A DNA stretch of 64,000 nucleotides from a virus (IMGVR_UViG_3300025508_000006:1-64000); one strand, 5' to 3'. Counted from the stretch's first letter, positions 208 to 16,175 are shown. The notes: generated from the sequence alone by a model not told the origin. Numbers and translations are program-made.

Positions 208-504
208 ATGAAGTCATTTAAGACACATCTCGAAGAATCCGCCAAAGTAAAGTGGATTAAAGTTGCTGACGGATACGCGAATAAAAAGATGGTGTACAAA
301 CACGTAACTTCTGATCGTATGTATGAAATACGTTTATCTGGTGCTGATTCTATGAAATTTAATAAAGATGGCAGTCAGAAAGTGTTGCCTACAGTCTTTG
401 ATAAGCATCCAGCAACATATAGTCCAAGATATCCTGTTACCGGATATAAGAATGTTGCTACAGCGAAAGCAGAAGTTGAGAGATGGATTGCCGATCATGA
501 ATAA
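208..504 (+). CDS. small probable head-cargo protein with capsid-targeting-like N-terminus
   Basis: This 98-residue protein starts MKSFKTHLEES, which matches the pattern of T4 internal-protein capsid-targeting peptides (T4 IPs start MKTYQEFIAEA and are cut by prohead protease gp21 after L/I-x-E). Here the predicted cut is after Glu10. The remainder is a compact basic/aromatic domain that I do not recognise. An AGAGAG ribosome site lies just upstream of the ATG. The gene is first in its operon, directly after the 148 promoter, and its stop overlaps the start of the ligase-like gene, so translation is probably coupled. The cargo role is inferred from the N-terminus alone. Confidence 0.7.
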   Translation: MKSFKTHLEESAKVKWIKVADGYANKKMVYKHVTSDRMYEIRLSGADSMKFNKDGSQKVLPTVFDKHPATYSPRYPVTGYKNVATAKAEVERWIADHE

Positions 505-1726
505 TTTTAACGAGTTCATTACAGAAGCGGCACAAAAGAACACCCATATGACTCACATCGAAGATAAGGTGATCTACGGTGGTGCTGATGGAACTCGTCA
601 AGCAATCAATGCTCTTCGTGAGTTAAGAGATATGCTTGGCGGTAAGAAAGAAGGTTCTGTATCAGTCAAGTGGGACGGTGCACCAGCAGTATTTGCCGGT
701 ACTGATCCCTCTGACGGTAAGTTCTTTGTTGCTAAGAAAGGCATCTTCAATAAGAATCCAAAGATATACAAGACTGATGCTGACATCGATGACGATACGT
801 CTGGCGATCTCAATGACAAACTAAAACTTGCATTGAAGTATTTACCTGAACTTGGTATTAAAGGAGTCATTCAAGGTGACTTTCTATACAAGCGTTCTGA
901 ATTAAAGAAGAAGAAGATCGGCACAGAATCGTATCTCACCTTTCACCCTAACACAATCGTGTATGCAGTACCCGTAAAACAATCTAAAGAACTACTTGCT
1001 TCTAAAATCGGCATTGTATGGCACACTACATATACAGGTAGTTCTTTTGAAACTATGAGCGCATCATACGGTGTTGATGTAAACAAACTGAAGAAGTCAA
1101 CTAATGTCTGGTCACAGGACGCTATCTTGCGTGATGTGTCTAATGCAACGATGACTAAAAAAGAAACGGATGAAGTAAATGAAACTCTATCACAAATTGG
1201 CAAACTTTTTAACCAAATCTCTGGAAGCACTCTTCGCGTATTATCCGCCAACCCAGGACTTGCAGGTACTATCGAAACCTTTAATAACACCTACGTTAGA
1301 CGAGGAGAAGTCATCGGAGACTCCAAAAAGCACGCCGAAAAACTCATCGCCTACATCAACCAAAAGTACCAAAAAGAAATCGACAAGCGTAGCACCGAAA
1401 AAGGCAAAGGCGCCCAAAAAGCGAAGCGCGACGAAATCCTCAAGTTCTTCAGCAAAGAAAACAAAATAAGTCTCATTAAGATGTTTGAATTGCAGAAATT
1501 GATTGTTTTAGTTAAATTAAAACTTATAAATAACCTTAATAGATTAAGTAATATTGGTGCGTTTGTTAAAACTAAGAACGGATACAAGACTACTGGTCAA
1601 GAAGGTTATGTTGCAATAGACACACTTGGTGGTGATGCGGTGAAACTAGTTGATCGTATGGAGTTTTCATACAACAACTTTTCACCTGATATATTAAAAG
1701 GATGGGATAAACCAAAGGGTAAATAA
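497..1726 (+). CDS. ligase-like nucleotidyltransferase with capsid-targeting-like N-terminus
   Basis: The 409-residue protein starts MNNFNEFITEA, with a T4-type targeting peptide and a predicted gp21 cut after Glu10. Around residues 50-60 the sequence SVKWDGAPAVF contains K-x-D-G, motif I of the DNA/RNA ligase and mRNA-capping nucleotidyltransferase superfamily. GVIQGDFLY fits a motif III position, and near the C-terminus GQEGYVAID (EGxV, motif IV) is followed by AVKLVDR (motif V-like). It belongs to a family common in T4-like marine and Vibrio phages, usually annotated as hypothetical. I chose the ATG at 497 rather than upstream starts because it gives the targeting peptide and overlaps the previous stop in the style of this genome. 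Ligase fold is well supported; the substrate (RNA or DNA) is unknown. Confidence 0.75.
   Translation: MNNFNEFITEAAQKNTHMTHIEDKVIYGGADGTRQAINALRELRDMLGGKKEGSVSVKWDGAPAVFAGTDPSDGKFFVAKKGIFNKNPKIYKTDADIDDDTSGDLNDKLKLALKYLPELGIKGVIQGDFLYKRSELKKKKIGTESYLTFHPNTIVYAVPVKQSKELLASKIGIVWHTTYTGSSFETMSASYGVDVNKLKKSTNVWSQDAILRDVSNATMTKKETDEVNETLSQIGKLFNQISGSTLRVLSANPGLAGTIETFNNTYVRRGEVIGDSKKHAEKLIAYINQKYQKEIDKRSTEKGKGAQKAKRDEILKFFSKENKISLIKMFELQKLIVLVKLKLINNLNRLSNIGAFVKTKNGYKTTGQEGYVAIDTLGGDAVKLVDRMEFSYNNFSPDILKGWDKPKGK
1525..1532 (+). promoter_or_regulatory. possible intragenic T4-type late promoter
   Basis: TATAAATA lies inside the ligase-like gene, about 195 bp upstream of the 1728 gene. A 17-base string around it (1522-1538) is identical to the one around the late promoter at 41142-41149, which makes chance less likely. 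It would drive late expression of the 1728 basic protein and the genes after it. Confidence 0.45.
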
Positions 1727-1727
1727 G

Positions 1728-2192
1728 ATGGCAGATAAACCATTATCGTTTAAAGATTTCTTATCGGTCGACTACACTCAGACGGGTGACGGTCAATTGG
1801 CGAAGAATGCAAAGAAACGCAAAACAGATGACGTTACCGGAAACACCGGTGAAGGCACTGACGAAGCACTCGACTTTCAACAGAGACGTGCTCGTGGTCG
1901 CTCAATGAAAAAGAACAAAGCAAAGATAGCGATGGGTCGTAGACGTGCCGCTAAGAAAACTGCTAGTCAAGACGTTCTTAAAAAACGTGCCCGCAAAGGC
2001 GCGATAAGTCAACTATTCAAAAAATTCTCTAAGGGTGTATCGAAATCGGACATCCCTGCTTCACGCCGTCAAGAGATCGAGAAGCGTATCGAGAAAATGA
2101 AATCAAAAGTAGATATGATTGCTCGAAAGAACTTACCTGCTATTCGTAAATTAGAGAAAGATCGACGGTCTGGTGGTAATAAAACAAAATGA
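1728..2192 (+). CDS. very basic, probable DNA-associated internal protein
   Basis: The protein has 154 residues and is extremely rich in Lys and Arg (for example RRARGRSMKKNKAKIAMGRR), with a helical C-terminal half containing SRRQEIEKRIEKMKSK. Proteins of this type are widespread in T4-like marine phages next to the same neighbours, and their charge suggests DNA or RNA binding or packaging with the genome. The N-terminus MADKPLSFKDFLSVDY resembles the targeting peptides of neighbouring genes (SFKDFL) but lacks the Glu expected at the gp21 cleavage site. Its stop overlaps the ATG at 2189. Function is inferred from composition and context only. Confidence 0.7.
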   Translation: MADKPLSFKDFLSVDYTQTGDGQLAKNAKKRKTDDVTGNTGEGTDEALDFQQRRARGRSMKKNKAKIAMGRRRAAKKTASQDVLKKRARKGAISQLFKKFSKGVSKSDIPASRRQEIEKRIEKMKSKVDMIARKNLPAIRKLEKDRRSGGNKTK

Positions 2193-3436
2193 TTCCTTCA
2201 TTTAAACAGTATCTCGTAGAAGAGAACCGTGAAGTGTTCTTCACATTCGGTCGTATGAATCCTCCTACGATCGGACACGGCAAACTACTGTCAGTACTAT
2301 CTACTAAAGCAGGCAAGAATCCCTGGTTCGCTTATGTCTCACAATCACAAAACGCAAAGAAAGATCCCTTAACCTACGATCAGAAAGTGAAGCACGTTCG
2401 CAAGATGTTTCCTAAGTTTGGTCGTAATGTAATGCTTGATAAGAAAGTACGTACAGTGTTTGATATTGCAGTGATACTATTCGATCAAGGATTCAATCGC
2501 ATTACAATGGTTGTTGGTTCTGACCGTGTAACAGAATTTAAGACTCTCCTTGACAAGTACAATGGTGAGAAAGCACGACACGGTTTCTATAACTTCGAAA
2601 AGATCATGGTTGTATCTGCGGGTGAACGTGATCCTGATGCCGAAGGTGTTGAAGGTATGTCTGCATCTAAGCAACGCGAGAATGCCAAGAACAATGATTT
2701 CACATCATTCTCTCAAGGCGTTCCTAAGACAATGAACACACGAGATGCAAAGCGTCTGTTCAATGATGTACGTGGTGGGATGGGACTCAAAGAAACAACT
2801 ACATTTAGAAACCACATTGAACTTGAATCAGTCTCAGAGACACGAGAGAAATTTGTTCAAGGCGAGTTGTTCAATCTTACTGACAAAGTTATTATCAGCG
2901 AGTCTGGTAAGACAGGATACATTCAAACTATTGGTACTAACTATGTTATCGTAGCATTAGATGAAGGTGGTATTACTCGCCAATGGATCGAATCAGTCGA
3001 GTTAGCAGAAGTTCCTACTACTCAGATGATTGACAAGATTAAATCATCTACTGTATCTAAGAAGCGATATCAGGCAGCACTCAAAATACTAAAAGATGTT
3101 GTCGCTCGTAAGAAGAAAGAAGCGAGTGGTAAACCCATGCGTCACGGTATCGAATACTACGCTGGACAAATCGCTAAACAGTATGATATCAATCCTCGAG
3201 TTCTTGCTACTATGCACGAGACTAATGTTCCTGGATGGGGAACACCAGAAGCAACTAAGAAAGCGAAGAAGTATGTCCCTGGTCAGAATGAAGCGAAGGG
3301 TGACGAAGTTGCCATAGCAAGAGATGTTATCGACCAAGAACTTCAGACAGACAAGATTAAACATGACCGTATTCTTGATCGTGCGAGACTAAACCGCGCT
3401 AGACGCAAGAATAAACTAACAAATCCAAAAGTATAA
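2189..3436 (+). CDS. cytidylyltransferase-fold nucleotidyltransferase with capsid-targeting-like N-terminus
   Basis: The 415-residue protein starts MIPSFKQYLVEEN (predicted gp21 site after Glu11), followed immediately by VFFTFGRMNPPTIGHGKLL. The T-x-G-R-x-N-P-P-T-x-G-H signature is that of the HxGH cytidylyltransferase / NMN-adenylyltransferase superfamily. Around residue 155, GMSASKQRENA corresponds to the family's S-x-x-x-x-R nucleotide-binding motif. The C-terminal half (about residues 200-415) is Lys-rich, with a helical repeat-like region ending in a basic tail. A role in NAD or nucleotide metabolism, or in RNA-end repair, is plausible; the substrate is unknown. It sits between the basic protein and the large polyprotein-like gene. 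Confidence 0.78.
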   Translation: MIPSFKQYLVEENREVFFTFGRMNPPTIGHGKLLSVLSTKAGKNPWFAYVSQSQNAKKDPLTYDQKVKHVRKMFPKFGRNVMLDKKVRTVFDIAVILFDQGFNRITMVVGSDRVTEFKTLLDKYNGEKARHGFYNFEKIMVVSAGERDPDAEGVEGMSASKQRENAKNNDFTSFSQGVPKTMNTRDAKRLFNDVRGGMGLKETTTFRNHIELESVSETREKFVQGELFNLTDKVIISESGKTGYIQTIGTNYVIVALDEGGITRQWIESVELAEVPTTQMIDKIKSSTVSKKRYQAALKILKDVVARKKKEASGKPMRHGIEYYAGQIAKQYDINPRVLATMHETNVPGWGTPEATKKAKKYVPGQNEAKGDEVAIARDVIDQELQTDKIKHDRILDRARLNRARRKNKLTNPKV

Positions 3437-3445: not shown

Positions 3446-5587
3446 ATGAAAACATTTAATGCGCTATCAGAAGAAGTAACTCAAAAGCAACTCAATGATG
3501 TTGAGAAGTTTGCGGATCGTATTCTCGCCAAGTTTAATGTAGACATTGAATTTACTCGCCACTTCGCGGATCGTATGAATGATGATCGAAACAAACCCGC
3601 AGTTAGTGTTGCAGAGTTACAGCAGATATTTAAGAAGATTGCAAGAAAGAAAGCGAAGGATATAAAACAGAATCCAGACAGTGAAGCGGTCATAAAGGAT
3701 ATTCAAAAAGACTTGAACTTGCCTGTGGTTATACGTTATAATAGAAACAAAGAAGAGTTTGAGGTTACTACAAAGACTATCATGCGCAAAAAAGATTTTA
3801 AGACTAGCAGTAAAGTAATCACTACAGAGAAAACTTTGACACCTGCTGAGATAAAGAAGCGAGAAGAAATCGCTAAAGCGATCGAGAAGGATTCACCTGG
3901 TATGTCCATGGCAAAGAAGATGGCAATCGCGACCGCGACCGCGAAGCGTGTTGCTGAAGCAAAAAAGATGAAAGACGACCCTTGTTGGAAAGATCACGAG
4001 ATGGTTGGAACTAAAACAAAAAATGGTAAGACAGTACCTAACTGTGTGCCCAAAGAAGATAAAGGAATTGATATGCCCTCGGAGTCAACAAAGGAATACG
4101 GTAAGTCTCAGGCAGCGATTGCTCGTAAGCGTCAACAGGCAGCAATGCGTCCTGGTGAGATGGACAAGTTAAAGCGTCTCAAAGATATGCTCAGGAATGC
4201 TAATAATAAAGTTGGTGTTGTTAAAAAAGAATCTGTTGATGAAGCATTATCTCCATCATACAAAAACAAGTATATCGGTAAAGACAAAGCGTCCTTACAG
4301 AAGACTCGTAACTCTTTCTTGTCTCAGATTGACGATCTCATTAAGTTCAAGAAGAAGACTACCAAGGATTCCGAAGTAGTTAAACTTCAAGATTTGCTCA
4401 AGCAAGTTGACCATGCACTTAAAGGTGTTAAAGAAAGCAAGAAACCAGTATCACAGATGACTCCTGCCGAGAAGAAAGCAGATGCAGAGAGACGTAAAGA
4501 ATACAAGGCGTATCAAAAGTCAAAGCGTGAGTCAATTGAAGAAGCGGTTGAAGATTGGACAGTCACCGTTACAAAACCTGTCAACAAATTAAAGAAAGGT
4601 GCGGCACAAAAAGTTAAAGCACGTTCTGCATTTGAAGCAATTAACAAAGCAGTGAAACTATGGGGCGATCCTGCTCTTAAAGCGGCACCAATGAATTCGT
4701 TTAGTGTTACTAAAGAGTCGGTTGAACTTGAAGAGAAGATGAAAGATAAACCATACGAAAAACAAATCGGTATGGGTGATTCTCGTAGCGAAAAAGAAAT
4801 TCGTGATCAGATTAGTGGTTTGAGCGATGGCACATTAAAGAAATGGGCAAGTAAACCAGCAGGACGTTTTGGTTCTAAGATTGCTAAATTACAAGATAAA
4901 GTGATCGCTGCCGAGATGAAAAAGCGTGGTCTTAAAGAATCTGTCGAAGAAGCGAAAGAACCTTCACTAAAAAGCACAGATTATCCCAAAGGCACTTCTC
5001 AGTCTGCACAGGCATTCAAAGATAGATTCGCCAAAAAGAAGAAAGTACCTGCTCTGAAAAGCACAGATTATCCCAAAGGCACTTCAATGTCTGCAACTGC
5101 TTGGAAGAAAAAGAATGAATTTGTCGAAGCGATTATGGCCAAAGATGCTGTCGAAGAAGCAAGACAAATGAAAGACCCTAAGAAAGACTCTATGGTCACT
5201 AAGAGTGGTAAGACTATCGTAATCGACAAGTCTAAGGAATCAGAGTACCTCAAGAAAGGTTGGACTCTTGCTGAGAATGAGACTGTCGAAGAGTCTAAGA
5301 ACTTCTTTAAGTTTCGCGAGTCGTTGAACGAGAAGTATCAACACTATCATACTACATTCTCTAATGCTGTACAAACTGCTGAGAAGCAAGCAGAGAAGCA
5401 AGGTTATGAAGTCGATCAAGATGATTGGTTCAACAAGATTGCAACTGGTCCTAAGAAACCTTCTGAGGGTAAGACTAATAGTTATATCATTAAGTTGTTG
5501 AAGAATGGTAAACCTACGAAGAAGACATTAGCAATACAAGTCTTCAATATGGGTAAGAAGTACGAACTTAATATGTACATCTCATAA
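3446..5587 (+). CDS. large modular Lys-rich internal (polyprotein-like) head protein
   Basis: The 713-residue protein starts MKTFNALSEEV, a targeting-like peptide with L-x-E. It is a string of short modules separated by acidic E-S-V-(D/E)-E-A-like spacers (near residues 263, 363, 430, 500 and 570). Modules include an N-terminal FTRHFADRMNDDRN domain, a Cys-containing DDPCWKDHEMVGTK segment, a SLQKTRNSFLSQIDDL helical module, two copies of LKSTDYPKGTS, and a C-terminal domain with KQGYEVDQDDWFNKIATGP and NSYIIKLLKNGKPTKK. Such assemblies occur in other T4-like marine phages without known function. The repeated acidic spacers, some fitting (L/I)-x-E, suggest processing by the prohead protease; this is inference. 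It is preceded by a late promoter and followed by an overlapping start at 5587. Confidence 0.7.
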   Translation: MKTFNALSEEVTQKQLNDVEKFADRILAKFNVDIEFTRHFADRMNDDRNKPAVSVAELQQIFKKIARKKAKDIKQNPDSEAVIKDIQKDLNLPVVIRYNRNKEEFEVTTKTIMRKKDFKTSSKVITTEKTLTPAEIKKREEIAKAIEKDSPGMSMAKKMAIATATAKRVAEAKKMKDDPCWKDHEMVGTKTKNGKTVPNCVPKEDKGIDMPSESTKEYGKSQAAIARKRQQAAMRPGEMDKLKRLKDMLRNANNKVGVVKKESVDEALSPSYKNKYIGKDKASLQKTRNSFLSQIDDLIKFKKKTTKDSEVVKLQDLLKQVDHALKGVKESKKPVSQMTPAEKKADAERRKEYKAYQKSKRESIEEAVEDWTVTVTKPVNKLKKGAAQKVKARSAFEAINKAVKLWGDPALKAAPMNSFSVTKESVELEEKMKDKPYEKQIGMGDSRSEKEIRDQISGLSDGTLKKWASKPAGRFGSKIAKLQDKVIAAEMKKRGLKESVEEAKEPSLKSTDYPKGTSQSAQAFKDRFAKKKKVPALKSTDYPKGTSMSATAWKKKNEFVEAIMAKDAVEEARQMKDPKKDSMVTKSGKTIVIDKSKESEYLKKGWTLAENETVEESKNFFKFRESLNEKYQHYHTTFSNAVQTAEKQAEKQGYEVDQDDWFNKIATGPKKPSEGKTNSYIIKLLKNGKPTKKTLAIQVFNMGKKYELNMYIS
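4970..5085 (+). repeat. 29-bp direct repeat, 87-bp period, inside the modular head protein
   Basis: The same 29 bases occur at 4970-4998 and 5057-5085, encoding KSTDYPKGTS twice, exactly 29 codons apart. The following residues are similar but not identical (QSAQAF against MSATAW). This indicates an in-frame module duplication. Confidence 0.9.
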
Positions 5588-5919
5588 TGAAAAAGTTTCG
5601 TGATTTCATAAACGAAGATTGCACCTGTGAAGAACTAGAAATCACAGAGGCGGAATATCAGGGTAAATCAGTTACACTAAATAACCCTTTTAGACTGCCT
5701 TCTGGTAATAAGAAGAAGTTTGGCGTATACGTTACCAATAAGAAAGGTAATATAGTTAAAGTTACGTTTGGTGATCCTAACATGGAGATCAAACGAGACG
5801 ACCCCGAGAGACGCAAGTCTTTCAGAGCGCGGCACAATTGTGCTGATAAAAAGGACAAAACCACTCCGGGTTACTGGAGTTGCTACCAATGGAGAGCGTC
5901 TGCGAAAGTAGATAACTAA
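5587..5919 (+). CDS. conserved small protein with capsid-targeting-like N-terminus
   Basis: The 110-residue protein starts MKKFRDFINEDC, with predicted gp21 cleavage after Glu10. The mature part carries KFGVYVTNKKGNIVKVTFG, then GDPNMEIKRDDPERRKSF and RARHNCADKKDKTTPGYW followed by SC. The GDPNM...RRKSFRARHNC...YWSC pattern is a conserved phage and archaeal-type domain that I recognise but cannot assign a function to; the paired Cys residues and His suggest metal binding. The start overlaps the previous stop (TAATG), which indicates coupled expression with the modular head protein. Confidence 0.75.
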   Translation: MKKFRDFINEDCTCEELEITEAEYQGKSVTLNNPFRLPSGNKKKFGVYVTNKKGNIVKVTFGDPNMEIKRDDPERRKSFRARHNCADKKDKTTPGYWSCYQWRASAKVDN

Positions 5920-5924
5920 ATTGT

Positions 5925-6224
5925 ATGGGAAATTTGACTAACGCAGATCGTCTGGGTCGTATAGAAGATAAAATAGATCAGATGTCAGAAGCAATTATCG
6001 CGCTCGCAAGGGTGCAAGAAAAGGTGTCGGATCTGGAAAATCGAAGACAAGAATCGCATGAGCGTATGAATCAGCATTCAAAAAAATTAGACGACATCGA
6101 CACAAAAGTAACAAGGTTGATGGAGAAAGTAAATAATATTCAGATAGTCGGTTTAGCGGCGGGCGGTCTGATAACAACAATAATTTTAGCACTACTAACT
6201 GGGCAGATAGTAATCGGCCAATAA
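5925..6224 (+). CDS. coiled-coil protein with C-terminal membrane anchor (XhlA/holin-like)
   Basis: The protein has 99 residues. Residues 1-75 form heptad-rich coiled coil (RIEDKIDQMSEAI, RMNQHSKKLDDIDTKVTRL). Residues 77-97 (IVGLAAGGLITTIILALLTG) form one strongly hydrophobic transmembrane segment. This architecture is that of XhlA-type or holin-accessory proteins and of some tail-associated membrane proteins. The only endolysin in the window is about 12 kb away at 18658, so a lysis role is possible but not supported by context. No targeting-like N-terminus is present, unlike most of its neighbours. Confidence 0.6.
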   Translation: MGNLTNADRLGRIEDKIDQMSEAIIALARVQEKVSDLENRRQESHERMNQHSKKLDDIDTKVTRLMEKVNNIQIVGLAAGGLITTIILALLTGQIVIGQ

Positions 6225-6243
6225 GATAAACCTGGAGAACAAC

Positions 6244-7272
6244 ATGAACCCCGAGTACATTAAAAGCATCGCCCAACTATGGCAACAAGTGCAAGAAGGC
6301 GAAAAGAAGAAATTAGATCCCGTAGATGATAAAGAGAACGATAAGAAGTTCAAGGATCGCAAAGACAAAGACATTGACAACGATGGCGATGTTGATTCAT
6401 CTGATGAGTTTTTGCACAAGAGACGTAAAGCAATCGATGATAAGATTGATGGCGGTAAGAAACCTGCTAAGGAATCTTGCGGCGATGACGATAAGAAGGT
6501 GAAGAAAGAGTCGGACGAAGATATGACTCCTTGTCCTGATTGCGAAGGTTCTACTGATAATCACAGTCCTGAATGTCCTAAAGCAGACAAAGGTAAAAAA
6601 GAAGTAGAAGAGGGCAAAGTGAAAGATCAAATGGTTGCAGATTCCGAGAAGATGTCTAAGAAAGACTTCATTAAGAAGTACGGAAAAGAAATGGCAGATG
6701 ATCTTTATGAAGCAAAGGAATATTCCTACACTGTTGTTCATGCTAAGAAAGGTAAGGTAGTAGTTACTGCCCCTACTTCATATGATGCGGCACAGAAAGC
6801 GGCAAAGCAATGGAAACTGAAGTCTACTGGTGGTGTTGATGCGTATCTTATGAAAGAATCTAATACTGTTACTCATGCTGACCACGGTTATGGTGAAATT
6901 CTGCAACGTACTGATGAAGGCGTAGATGTTATGTTTGAACATGGCGTTGAAATGGGTATGAGCGAAGCAACTCTGACATTCCTAGAGACTGTTGGCGCTA
7001 CTACACTAGCAAAGAAAGCAACTCAAGTTGCTGGCGGTGGAGAGAAGCATGGCGAAACTCAGTCTAAGGGCGAGAAAGACTTTGCTGATAAGCATGACAA
7101 AGATGATCCTAAGTTAGCGGCAGATGATTCTGCTGGACACGAAGATGCTACTAAAGCAGGACGTGCAGTTAAGTCACAGTCTGGTACTCGCGGCAACGAA
7201 CCTCGTATCGGTGACAAGACTATTGTAAATCCTGTTAAGGGTGCTGTAACTAAAACTACTGGTAAGGAATAA
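6244..7272 (+). CDS. acidic/Lys-rich internal protein with EF-hand-like loop and Cys cluster
   Basis: The protein has 342 residues and starts MNPEYIKSIAQLWQQVQEGE, a conserved opening among marine T4-like head proteins that may itself act as a targeting segment. Residues 43-54 (DIDNDGDVDSSD) fit the 12-residue Ca-binding loop D-x-D-x-D-G-x-V-x-x-x-D with Asp at position 12, as in dockerin loops. A CPDC...HSPEC cluster near residue 97 looks like a small zinc-binding knuckle. A folded module around residues 158-205 (SYTVVHAKKGKVVVTAP) is followed by a low-complexity polar tail. The ATG has a good GGAG site. Function is unknown; a core or cargo protein is likely from context. Confidence 0.65.
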   Translation: MNPEYIKSIAQLWQQVQEGEKKKLDPVDDKENDKKFKDRKDKDIDNDGDVDSSDEFLHKRRKAIDDKIDGGKKPAKESCGDDDKKVKKESDEDMTPCPDCEGSTDNHSPECPKADKGKKEVEEGKVKDQMVADSEKMSKKDFIKKYGKEMADDLYEAKEYSYTVVHAKKGKVVVTAPTSYDAAQKAAKQWKLKSTGGVDAYLMKESNTVTHADHGYGEILQRTDEGVDVMFEHGVEMGMSEATLTFLETVGATTLAKKATQVAGGGEKHGETQSKGEKDFADKHDKDDPKLAADDSAGHEDATKAGRAVKSQSGTRGNEPRIGDKTIVNPVKGAVTKTTGKE

Positions 7273-7276
7273 GATT

Positions 7277-7540
7277 ATGCCTATTAGAGGTCCTAAGAAT
7301 GCTACTCCAACTCCAATCGGTTGGGTTTCACCAAAAGGTGAATTGCTAAAGAGTCAACGTATTACTCCTCAGCAGATCGCAGAGTTTCATGGTGATGTTC
7401 CATCAACTGCAACTCAGTTAAACGAAGCACCTGTTCACCAGACTTCATTGAATTCCATGACTGATGTGGAACTAGAAGTAACTTCACTGCATTATGATAT
7501 TGATTTGTCTTCGGGTCTTACTGAAGAGTTGGAAGATTAA
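7277..7540 (+). CDS. conserved small phage protein, function unknown
   Basis: The 87-residue protein starts MPIRGPKNATPTPIGWVSPK, followed by GELLKSQRITPQQIAEFHG. This N-terminal module is shared by many T4-like marine phage proteins. The C-terminal part (SLNSMTDVELEVTSL) resembles the start of a SAP-like helix-extension-helix but ends early. The gene follows the EF-hand-like protein by 4 bp and its stop is 1 bp before the next ATG, so it belongs to the same operon. Confidence 0.65.
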   Translation: MPIRGPKNATPTPIGWVSPKGELLKSQRITPQQIAEFHGDVPSTATQLNEAPVHQTSLNSMTDVELEVTSLHYDIDLSSGLTEELED

Positions 7541-12334: not shown

Positions 12335-13954
12335 ATGAAACCCACTATAGCATTGTATGAGGGTCATGATACTAATCTAACAGTACATGATCCTAATACC
12401 GACTCGTTCTACATATATGAATTTGAACGTGTTTCTGGTATTAAACATCATAACACAAAACTTCGTGATGAAGCATCTACTTCAGATAATGTTCTTTATC
12501 TCAAAAAAATTCTGAATCATCTTGAAGAAGTTCATGGTATAAAAAATGACTTCAAAACATTAATCTTCAAACCCATTTGGTTTGATGTTTCGTTCATTGA
12601 TCGCACTTGCATCAATGCAGACGAAGAAGTTCAACAATCCAAGGTTCCCGATCACCACGACTATCATGCGTGGAGCGCATATGGTCAGGCACCAGAATCC
12701 TTCGAGAACACCGCGTGTTTAACGTATGATGGTTGGGGTGATAACACTTCATTCAAGTACTCATGTTTCGAAGGTATCAATCGTCACTCAGTTCAATCCA
12801 TGAGACACAACTTCTCGATGGTCTATACTGCTGTCGCACACTCACTCAAAATACTACACGGCACTCTGGACCTTGATCTTCCGGGTAAACTGATGGGATT
12901 ATCCGCATATGGAGAATTGAATGATGAATGGGTAGATATAATGAAAGACGCCATTTCATCTAATTGGTGGAGTGAAGATGTAAGGGACCGTCATTGGAAC
13001 GACGAAAATAATCCATTGCTTATAATGAGAAATCGTATTGGTACTTGCATTCAAACTAATAATTATAAATTAAAACTGAAGAATAATAAAGCGTTCTCTC
13101 TTGCTAGGTCTGCGCAGGTTGCGTTCGAAGAGGGTATCGTAAAAACTATTAGAGAAGAGTTTCTTGACAAGATCGAAGCACACGATAACAATCTATTAAT
13201 ATCTGGTGGTAGTGCATTAAACGTTCTTGCTAACGAAGCAATCAAACGTGCGTTTCCTCACATTAATATATTCATCCCACCAAACTGTCATGACGGTGGT
13301 CTAAGTTTTGGTATGCTATACGAACATCTAAAGACATCTAAGAAGTACAATGTCACACAATCTGGTCCAAGAATATTCGACTACAAATATGTCGATCCAA
13401 TGATTAAACTGTATGGCGCAAAGAAAGTGGATACTAATGATATTGCTACCCTACTTAAAGAGCAGAAAATAGTAGGAATGGTGATTGGTAACATGGAAGT
13501 GGGACCTAGAGCGTTAGGCAATCGTTCTATACTATGTGATGCATCTAATCCTAAGATGAAAGACACACTCAATGCTAGAGTGAAGTTTCGAGAGTGGTTC
13601 AGACCGTTCGCTCCTATATGCAGAAAGGAAGATGCACCTAAGTATTTTTACTCTCCTAACTTCGATAACATGGAATGTATGCAATTCGTCGCAGATGTGT
13701 TGCCAGAGTATCAAACTAAACTGTTCTCTATAACACACTATGATGACACTGCCAGACTACAGGTGGTGACGGAGGAGAGCAATGCCGCAATCTATGACAT
13801 ACTGACAGCGTTCGATGGAGTACTAATAAACACTTCCTTTAATGTTCAAGGTAAACCTATTCTAAATACAATTGATGAAGCATTTCATGTTTTACAAAAT
13901 ACTGGATTAGATCATATAGTGGTAGAGTATGAAAATGAATATTGGTTATTTTAG
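12335..13954 (+). CDS. NodU/CmcH-type O-carbamoyltransferase, copy 1
   Basis: The 539-residue protein belongs to the family that transfers a carbamoyl group from carbamoyl phosphate, via carbamoyl-AMP, to a hydroxyl. The N-terminal Kae1-like domain has the metal motif DHHDYHAWSAY and TYDGWGDN near residues 105-135, and ISGGSALNVLANEA near 288. The YrdC-like C-terminal domain has GNMEVGPRALGNRSIL, KFREWFRPFAP and NTSFNVQGKPILN, all family hallmarks. The acceptor is unknown. In phages such enzymes are considered for DNA base hypermodification or for capping a sugar. Ribosome access may be controlled by the hairpin at 12307-12331. A related but clearly diverged copy lies at 14427. Confidence 0.88.
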   Translation: MKPTIALYEGHDTNLTVHDPNTDSFYIYEFERVSGIKHHNTKLRDEASTSDNVLYLKKILNHLEEVHGIKNDFKTLIFKPIWFDVSFIDRTCINADEEVQQSKVPDHHDYHAWSAYGQAPESFENTACLTYDGWGDNTSFKYSCFEGINRHSVQSMRHNFSMVYTAVAHSLKILHGTLDLDLPGKLMGLSAYGELNDEWVDIMKDAISSNWWSEDVRDRHWNDENNPLLIMRNRIGTCIQTNNYKLKLKNNKAFSLARSAQVAFEEGIVKTIREEFLDKIEAHDNNLLISGGSALNVLANEAIKRAFPHINIFIPPNCHDGGLSFGMLYEHLKTSKKYNVTQSGPRIFDYKYVDPMIKLYGAKKVDTNDIATLLKEQKIVGMVIGNMEVGPRALGNRSILCDASNPKMKDTLNARVKFREWFRPFAPICRKEDAPKYFYSPNFDNMECMQFVADVLPEYQTKLFSITHYDDTARLQVVTEESNAAIYDILTAFDGVLINTSFNVQGKPILNTIDEAFHVLQNTGLDHIVVEYENEYWLF

Positions 13955-14426: not shown

Positions 14427-16175
14427 ATGAGAAATCTAATCGCCGCCAATTGGGGTCATGACGCCGCACTATGTTTCTGGAATGATGTTACAAAAACATT
14501 TCATACTATTGAGATAGAAAAATTAGAAGGTATAAAACACTATAGAGGTCACTATCGTAAGGACGAGGAACTAGAAATTCTCAAACGGTGTGCTAAGATA
14601 GCAGAAGAAGAGTTTGGCATACCTAATGATTATCATTGCATTATTCGTGGCAATGTATTAAATGATATTAAGATGCATCAAATAGAGACGAGCACTGGTC
14701 GTATCACAGACAATATTATTATGAATGATATGATGCTCGACCCTGATAATATTAATGCAGTATTTAATACTAAGCATATTGATGTCACATACCGTCATCA
14801 CGAAGCACATGCTTGGAATGGGTTTGCTCCTTCGGGATTTGACAAAGCAATCATACTTACTATGGATGGTGGTGGCAACGATGGGTTTACTCATTTGTTC
14901 ACTGCTGAGAATCCTGATAGACCTCTGACAAGTCGCACTAAACTACACGGAGTTCGAGCACATGGAAGGGACTATACACAAGCATGCCTATGGTCATTAT
15001 GGAGCATAATGCAAAGTACTGATTGTGGATTAGATGTTGCGGGCAAAGCAATGGGTGCATCATCATACGGTAATACAGAAAGTGATGCCTTTTCAACTGC
15101 CCAAAAACTTTATCTACGAAGTACAGAGACTTGGAAAAACTTTAGTCCAGGTAGAATGTTATACGAAAGGCATTACAATCAAACATTGAAAGACGGGACT
15201 AATAGTAAGACTAATTTTATTAGAGCGTTCAGTCCTTCGCCCGAACTATATAATCCTTATAAACTATTCGTGGACGAGACTGATTGGCAAACAGAATGTG
15301 ATTTGGCAAGAGGCATTCAAGATGCATTCGTTAAAGATGCGCTGGCATGGTTTGTAGGTATACTGAACCAACAAAAGATAAACCTAGATGACTATGACAG
15401 AAATGTGGTGTTCTCTGGTGGGTCTGCTTTAAATGTATTATTCAATGACGTGTTGCAGAAAAAGTTAAATATAAATCTATTCGTCCCACCTAATCCGGCA
15501 GACCAAGGTATACCTTACGGTATGCTTGTGCAATGGATGGTTGCGAATGAAATGAAATACTCTCGTGAAGAAACAACATACTCGGGTCAAAAGATACAAG
15601 ATTTAGATGAACTGCCGCACTATATAGATTTATATGCTGGTGAGGGAGCAACAGTCTCAGAGATAGCAAGTATTCTGAAAGACGATAAGATCATTGGATT
15701 CGTACAAGGTGGCATGGAAGTAGGTGCGAGAGCATTAGGCAATCGTTCTATACTTGCTGATCCCAAGGGCGAAGATAAGAAAGACAAAGTTAATGTAGTG
15801 AAGAGACGCGAAGCATATCGTCCGTTCGCACCAGTATGTAGACTAGAAGATGCTGAGACTTACTTCGATTCGATTCGTTATGACAATCTATCTTATATGA
15901 ATTTTGCGATAAAGACTCGTGAAGAACATATAGATAAGTTAAGAGCAGTTACTCATGTTGACGGTACAGCAAGAGTACAAACGGTCACGCGAGAACAGAA
16001 CGAAATATTATACGACTTATTAACAGAATTTGATGGTGTATTATTGAACACTTCTTTCAATGTGAAAGGATCTCCAATACTAAATACACTTAAAGAAGCA
16101 TTCTATATGCTGGACGAAACCACACTCGATCATCTGGTAGTTGTAGATGACAATCAATTAATATGGATTTTTTAA
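14427..16175 (+). CDS. NodU/CmcH-type O-carbamoyltransferase, copy 2
   Basis: This is a second 582-residue carbamoyltransferase. It has RHHEAHAWNGFAPSGF and LTMDGGGNDG in the N-terminal domain, FSGGSALNVLFNDV in the middle, and GGMEVGARALGNRSIL, RREAYRPFAPVC and NTSFNVKGSPILN in the C-terminal domain. One departure from the family and from copy 1 is GARALG in place of GPRALG. The proteins share the same order of motifs but only moderate identity, so the duplication is old or the two were acquired separately. Different acceptors are likely. The stop overlaps the start of the kinase gene by one base. Confidence 0.88.
   Translation: MRNLIAANWGHDAALCFWNDVTKTFHTIEIEKLEGIKHYRGHYRKDEELEILKRCAKIAEEEFGIPNDYHCIIRGNVLNDIKMHQIETSTGRITDNIIMNDMMLDPDNINAVFNTKHIDVTYRHHEAHAWNGFAPSGFDKAIILTMDGGGNDGFTHLFTAENPDRPLTSRTKLHGVRAHGRDYTQACLWSLWSIMQSTDCGLDVAGKAMGASSYGNTESDAFSTAQKLYLRSTETWKNFSPGRMLYERHYNQTLKDGTNSKTNFIRAFSPSPELYNPYKLFVDETDWQTECDLARGIQDAFVKDALAWFVGILNQQKINLDDYDRNVVFSGGSALNVLFNDVLQKKLNINLFVPPNPADQGIPYGMLVQWMVANEMKYSREETTYSGQKIQDLDELPHYIDLYAGEGATVSEIASILKDDKIIGFVQGGMEVGARALGNRSILADPKGEDKKDKVNVVKRREAYRPFAPVCRLEDAETYFDSIRYDNLSYMNFAIKTREEHIDKLRAVTHVDGTARVQTVTREQNEILYDLLTEFDGVLLNTSFNVKGSPILNTLKEAFYMLDETTLDHLVVVDDNQLIWIF

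Follow-up and report, generated by a model that had tools for sequence, protein, structure and literature searches.

The stretch of DNA studied here (IMGVR_UViG_3300025508_000006:1-64000; 64,000 nucleotides, hereafter the window) belongs to a virus record of 116,030 bases, from a T4-like phage of marine origin and Kyanoviridae type. This work concerns three of its enzymes, namely a DUF6267 protein, a nucleotidyltransferase (NTase) and a P-loop kinase, which carry N-terminal tags of the type that targets proteins to the T4 capsid (Table 1). The initial 6 kb constitute a run of genes on the same strand, including products with the tagged starts MKSFKTHLEES, MNNFNEFITEA, MIPSFKQYLVEE and MKKFRDFINED. 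Within the phage collection, the nearest isolate is Phage C48C1, with 68% identity for the DUF6267 gene (497-1726), and the C48C1 gene at the position equivalent to 1728-2192 is itself tagged (MLSFKQFVSEV). The longest open reading frame (ORF) of the DUF6267 gene begins at 368; in relatives, the conserved start is that at 497, with which the tag opens. A previous examination of this DNA made without database searches (the sequence-only reading) had placed a ligase-type gene beside a nucleotidyltransferase gene, with a tagged kinase elsewhere, and all three were correctly located, with one gene (1728-2192) between the first two and the kinase at 16175-16879.

Table 1. Features of the window considered in this work. 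A slash within a tag marks the end of the (I/L)xE motif; aa, amino acids.
Feature	Coordinates	Strand	Evidence
Small tagged protein MKSFKTHLEES, directly upstream of the DUF6267 gene	208..504	+	N-terminus
DUF6267 protein, 409 aa, tag MNNFNEFITE/A	497..1726	+	Pfam PF19782, E 3e-103
Intervening basic protein, 154 aa, N-terminus MADKPLSFKDFLSVD	1728..2192	+	phrog_23027, E 6e-13
TxGH adenylyltransferase (NTase), 415 aa, tag MIPSFKQYLVE/E	2189..3436	+	phrog_3041/395 cytidyltransferase
713-aa protein downstream of the NTase, N-terminus MKTFNALSEEV	3446..5587	+	phrog_23027
Small tagged protein MKKFRDFINED	5587..5919	+	phrog_7595
P-loop kinase, 234 aa, tag MLKFKQYINE/Q	16175..16879	+	PF06414, PF13671

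DUF6267 is a Pfam family of unknown function, for which a literature search retrieved no paper. The family was present in more than 460 of the phage records searched, mostly of cyanophages, in which an NTase neighbour is usual, and the search for cellular homologues gave 33 matches in the genome collection, the majority of them on phage-looking contigs of metagenome-assembled genomes (MAGs). The window protein displays motifs I (K58-W-D-G, in VKWDG), III (Q126-G-D128), IV (E369-G370) and V (K383) in nucleotidyltransferase order, and residues K58, D60, Q126, D128, E369, G370 and K383 were invariant across 53 diverse members drawn from four clades. The KxDG motif recognized in the sequence-only reading is thus a real family feature, and the loss of catalytic residues that would have counted against that reading was not found; the residues are conserved instead. 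An AlphaFold2 model built from the alignment (predicted local distance difference test, pLDDT, 87.9; predicted template modelling score, pTM, 0.84) was compared with known structures by VIA-align, and its top neighbours were the RNA ligases TbREL1 (Z 8.2), NgrRnl (8.0), Trl1 (7.4) and T4 Rnl1 (7.1), followed by DNA ligases near 6.5, the best 40 matches being ligases only (Z 8.2-6.1). The motif order together with these moderate Z values suggests that DUF6267 is a lysine nucleotidyltransferase of the RNA-ligase fold, weakly pointing to the RNA ligases as its closest relatives.

These RNA ligases share with DUF6267 the fold and the motif order I-III-IV-V. However, DUF6267 has no significant sequence similarity to them, carries QGD as motif III and K(L/I)VDR as motif V, contains a helical insertion of ~130 residues after the motif IIIa region and ahead of motif IV, and is essentially a phage-only family. 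The specific identification as T4 Rnl1 was rejected, as hhalign aligned the two with a probability of 5.5 over 22 columns at motifs IV-V alone, PF09511 was not found although the T4 positive control was detected, and the KxK of motif V (K240 and K242, invariant in Rnl1) lacks its second lysine. Sequence searches of the PDB with the DUF6267 protein and with the NTase retrieved chance matches only.

The NTase comprises a nucleotidyltransferase domain (residues 13-202), a small beta domain (~230-272) and a tail. Its TxGH motif region TFGRMNPPTIGH occupies residues 19-30, and 34 members of the family shared as invariant G21, R22, N24, P25, P26, G29 and H30, as well as the SxS..R (S158, R163) and GxDR (G110, D112, R113) signatures, so that this motif, also recognized earlier, is equally real. 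The modelled domain was closest to phosphopantetheine adenylyltransferase (PPAT; Z 13.9), with NadD and nicotinamide mononucleotide adenylyltransferase (NMNAT) at 12-13. Among the NCBIfam models, NMNAT was preferred over CoaD across the 34 members (13 and 11 versus 1), and the NMNAT models TIGR00482 and TIGR01526 matched NTase members other than that of the window with a best E of 4.5e-6. Because the profiles lean towards NMNAT, the usual annotation as cytidyltransferase seems doubtful and an adenylyltransferase more likely; the enzyme is more likely a TxGH adenylyltransferase of the NMNAT/PPAT fold with an NMNAT-like character, which agrees by fold and profiles with the nicotinamide adenine dinucleotide (NAD)/nucleotide adenylyltransferase proposed beforehand. 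As for the domain architecture of these proteins, phage Syn1 encodes the small beta domain at residues 230-272 as a gene of its own (Syn1_162, 92 aa), and locus L493 (7011-9357) encodes an NTase protein with an additional N-terminal domain of ~300 aa containing GSILTKRYRNDADLDLNV, which resembles a Pol-beta-type nucleotidyltransferase motif, adjoining DUF6267 and a split kinase frame.

The third enzyme carries the kinase motifs GGPGSGKS, DGTGK and R..R.R, and belongs to the zeta-toxin/AAA_33/polynucleotide-kinase-like proteins (PF06414, 38.9 bits; PF13671, 38.7 bits; both over the cut-offs). Its profile aligned with the kinase domain of T4 PseT over 153 columns (hhalign probability 96%), and adenylate kinase and zeta toxin matched it about as well. 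Unlike T4 PseT, it has no C-terminal DxDGT phosphatase domain, since the 234-aa protein stops after the kinase domain. Hence, the comparison with T4 Pnkp/Rnl1-type repair made in the sequence-only reading held for the kinase domain, and failed for the Pnkp phosphatase and, by profile, PF09511 and motif V, for Rnl1 membership.

The genes encoding these enzymes are linked well beyond the window. Considering the ~240 loci whose downstream flank reached 1.8 kb or more, which were fetched by similarity and hence are not independent, an NTase lay downstream of DUF6267 in 62/62 window-type, 67/67 P-TIM40-type, 55/55 S-RIM2-type and 57/58 HTVC008M-type loci, the DUF6267 proteins of the three latter clades being ~30-40% identical to that of the window. 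An overlap of a few bases between the NTase and DUF6267 genes is common, and PHROG 455 covers both ligase and NTase. Further, the kinase gene is found between DUF6267 and the NTase in 44 of the 57 HTVC008M-type (pelagiphage) loci with an NTase downstream, and in L491, a phage-like contig from a Sphingobacteriales MAG bin, a tagged NTase-kinase fusion (6208-7489; NTase at residues 3-207, kinase at 207-426) directly follows DUF6267. These two arrangements support the earlier proposal that the three enzymes belong together. Fusions of ligase with NTase or of ligase with kinase were absent among the loci examined, and the long NTase protein of Stenotrophomonas phage DLP6, considered as another kinase fusion, contained no kinase. 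Joining of a kinase to an NTase in one enzyme is a feature of NadR, and also of RibF and HldE. The fusion argues that the two enzymes act in sequence, with a small molecule as substrate instead of RNA ends.

All three enzymes (497, 2189 and 16175) begin with a T4-type N-terminal tag ending in (I/L)xE. The strict tag pattern occurred in 4 of 85 predicted window genes (expectation from shuffling, 0.15), and no match started at any of 345 internal methionines; the gene count omits 208 and 8847, which match by eye and were removed by the ORF-overlap filter. The T4 IPIII start, MKTYQEFIAEA, is closely similar to the window tags, for example to MNNFNEFITEA of the DUF6267 protein. In T4, such a tag packages proteins that are then injected; IPI acts as an inhibitor of a host restriction system, and infection of one E. 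coli strain requires IPIII (PMC3012670, PMC9391042). The 116 kb record also encodes a gp21-type prohead protease (PF03420 at 94673-95101, E 3.6e-44), behind which lie a scaffold-like ORF and a capsid-like ORF.

The distribution of the tag differed among clades. DUF6267 was tagged in 77/77 scorable window-type loci, as well as in C48C1 and the soil phage DLP6, and was untagged in all scored P-TIM40-type (n=80) and S-RIM2-type (n=46) loci. The NTase was tagged in 79/79 P-TIM40-type, 74/74 S-RIM2-type and nearly all window-type loci, and showed no clear tag in the 61/61 HTVC008M-type loci scored. On the DUF6267 tree ~7 tag changes are required, and since several of these are pattern misses, our claim is limited to the existence of tagged and untagged groups. 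In the HTVC008M-type pelagiphages (L171-L250), the gene order is kept and the tag is short or absent on all three enzymes, the N-termini being mostly MxLLVED for the ligase, MIPFILKEG for the kinase and MKTLKELLRK for the NTase.

Published virion proteomes include relatives of the NTase. The cluster T4-GC190, to which it is homologous, was found in purified virions of S-SM1 (PMC3037559), and homologues were reported in the virions of S-CREM2 (PMC10665884) and S-SCSM1 (PMC9602691); the NTase of all three phages bears the tag. In the S-CREM2 virion list, 5/7 tagged proteins were present versus 45/209 untagged ones (p 0.008), and pooling S-CREM2 with S-SCSM1 under the strict pattern gave p 0.005. 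Given these tags and virion data, NTase packaging looks widespread, and packaging of the tagged DUF6267 protein can be predicted for the clade of the window. The tag, the gp21-type protease and these proteomes render likely the packaging that the sequence-only reading had envisaged. Other tagged virion proteins of S-CREM2 (L470) are gp6, a SAM hydrolase (MKDFDSFLEE), and gp14, an APH-like kinase (MKRFDAFLTEE); furthermore, its gp12 (OR473000, 7704-10313) is a Cas9-like virion protein with the motif LRFASFMAEA ~17 residues past the annotated start, which is possibly injected.

With the integration of these findings, the explanation we favour, at somewhat less than even confidence, is that the phage injects a kinase-adenylyltransferase module making NAD-type dinucleotides together with an adenylating partner of ligase fold, whose targets would be RNA ends. 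The 497-3436 region would be part of a T4-type packaged-cargo set, whose tags would bring the enzymes to the prohead core, where the gp21-like protease presumably cleaves behind (I/L)xE, and the enzymes would enter the host with the DNA. There, the kinase may phosphorylate a nucleoside and the TxGH adenylyltransferase would then adenylylate the product, most likely yielding an NAD-type dinucleotide, and DUF6267, as a putative ATP-using lysine-AMP enzyme, would most likely seal or adenylylate RNA 5' ends early in infection. By analogy with the T4 internal proteins and with NARP, the benefit may be against NAD-depleting or RNA-cutting defence. A bolder formulation is in our view rather doubtful: DUF6267 would be an RNA-ligase-fold adenylyltransferase family, new and confined to phages, that shares one pathway with the kinase and the NMNAT-like enzyme, and phages of heterotrophic bacteria would package and inject all three, so that RNA or NAD repair chemistry begins ahead of phage gene expression.

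Several observations weigh against the favoured explanation. None of the members of these families has a known activity. A Foldseek search with DUF6267 gave no match below E 0.001 (best E 0.14, a DNA ligase), its structural Z near 8 is moderate, and the second motif-V lysine is replaced by V/I in 53/53 members; the window NTase matches TIGR00125 only, with 12.8 bits against a cut-off of 27.7, and falls below curated cut-offs. The window kinase lies 13 kb from the other two genes, and DUF6267 is far from the NTase in S-CREM2 and S-SCSM1, so the linkage is not universal. The association of tag and virion was not significant for S-SCSM1 alone (p 0.16), and the untagged DUF6267 was neither in the published S-CREM2 list nor an annotated virion protein in S-SCSM1.

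The separate location and different packaging of DUF6267 and the NTase in the two latter phages suit an explanation by NAD metabolism only, in which the packaged kinase and NMNAT make or restore NAD+ and DUF6267 is a separate enzyme that is a mere neighbour. The NMNAT-leaning profiles, the NTase-kinase fusion and the virion NMNAT of several cyanophages point the same way, and a role in NAD+ has been proposed for the NMNAT-like protein by cyanophage authors. We nevertheless regard it as unlikely, given that the NTase follows DUF6267 at nearly every sufficiently flanked locus in four clades, often overlapping it, and that one PHROG spans both. The opposite emphasis, a set for RNA (transfer RNA, tRNA) repair in which the kinase rephosphorylates 5'-OH ends, DUF6267 seals them against anticodon nucleases and the NTase is accessory, draws on the alignment with the PseT kinase domain and on the RNA/tRNA ligases, T4 Rnl1 included, as top structural neighbours of DUF6267; yet the kinase lacks the 3'-phosphatase domain and is also matched by zeta toxin and adenylate kinase, the similarity to the Rnl1 family is limited to motifs IV-V, and the fusion partner of the kinase is the NTase and not the ligase, which leaves this reading quite improbable.

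The proximity of genes for a kinase, an NTase and a lysine nucleotidyltransferase would also fit the synthesis of an unusual nucleotide conjugate, attached by the ligase-fold enzyme to RNA, DNA or protein as a cap-like structure or hypermodification, and the NTase fold between PPAT and NMNAT, with its extra beta domain encoded apart in Syn1, is compatible with this; NMNAT models are favoured, however, and there is no direct evidence for such a conjugate, so we judge it very improbable. Least probable to us is that the tags arose by coincidence or have some other use, with DUF6267 acting only once expressed in the cell. Untagged cyanophage DUF6267 proteins do exist and are absent from two published virion lists, but the window tag is far over chance and kept in every scorable relative, and the tag is associated with virion detection of other S-CREM2 proteins.

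Compared with known systems, the window resembles the T4 IPI/IPIII system in the short N-terminal tag, the gp21-type protease in the genome and the T4 type of the phage, and differs in that its predicted cargo consists of conserved enzymes, whereas that of T4 consists of small variable inhibitors. The tagged NTase is homologous to the virion 'cytidylyltransferase' (T4-GC190) of cyanophages; in contrast to these, the window clade bears the tag on the adjacent DUF6267 as well, and has a tagged kinase. With NadR and similar enzymes the window shares the pairing of kinase and TxGH adenylyltransferase, the two being fused in the L491 relative; however, the window genes are separate and the kinase is of the zeta/AAA_33 group. 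Restoration of NAD+ during infection would be an idea in common with NARP1/NARP2; a search of the 116 kb record, which may be incomplete, detected the controls and no Nampt-type gene (PF04095), and did not include Adps.

The T4 tag system was already known, as were virion NMNAT-like proteins with a suggested influence on host NAD; the DUF6267 assignment, its tag in the window clade and the kinase link appear to be new. If DUF6267 is of the RNA-ligase type within a packaged kinase-adenylyltransferase pathway, this would represent an injected repair/NAD module of very common marine phages and would attach a specific enzymatic prediction to a family that so far has no assigned function. Moreover, the tag may serve as a cheap predictor of injected proteins in T4-like marine phages.

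Elsewhere in the window, two carbamoyltransferase-like genes (12335-13954 and 14427-16175) lie immediately upstream of the kinase gene. Further downstream, a gene run at 20331-23759 includes two radical-SAM-like genes (20331 and 22656) and a possible glycosyltransferase-like gene, and may belong to a cluster for glycan or surface modification.

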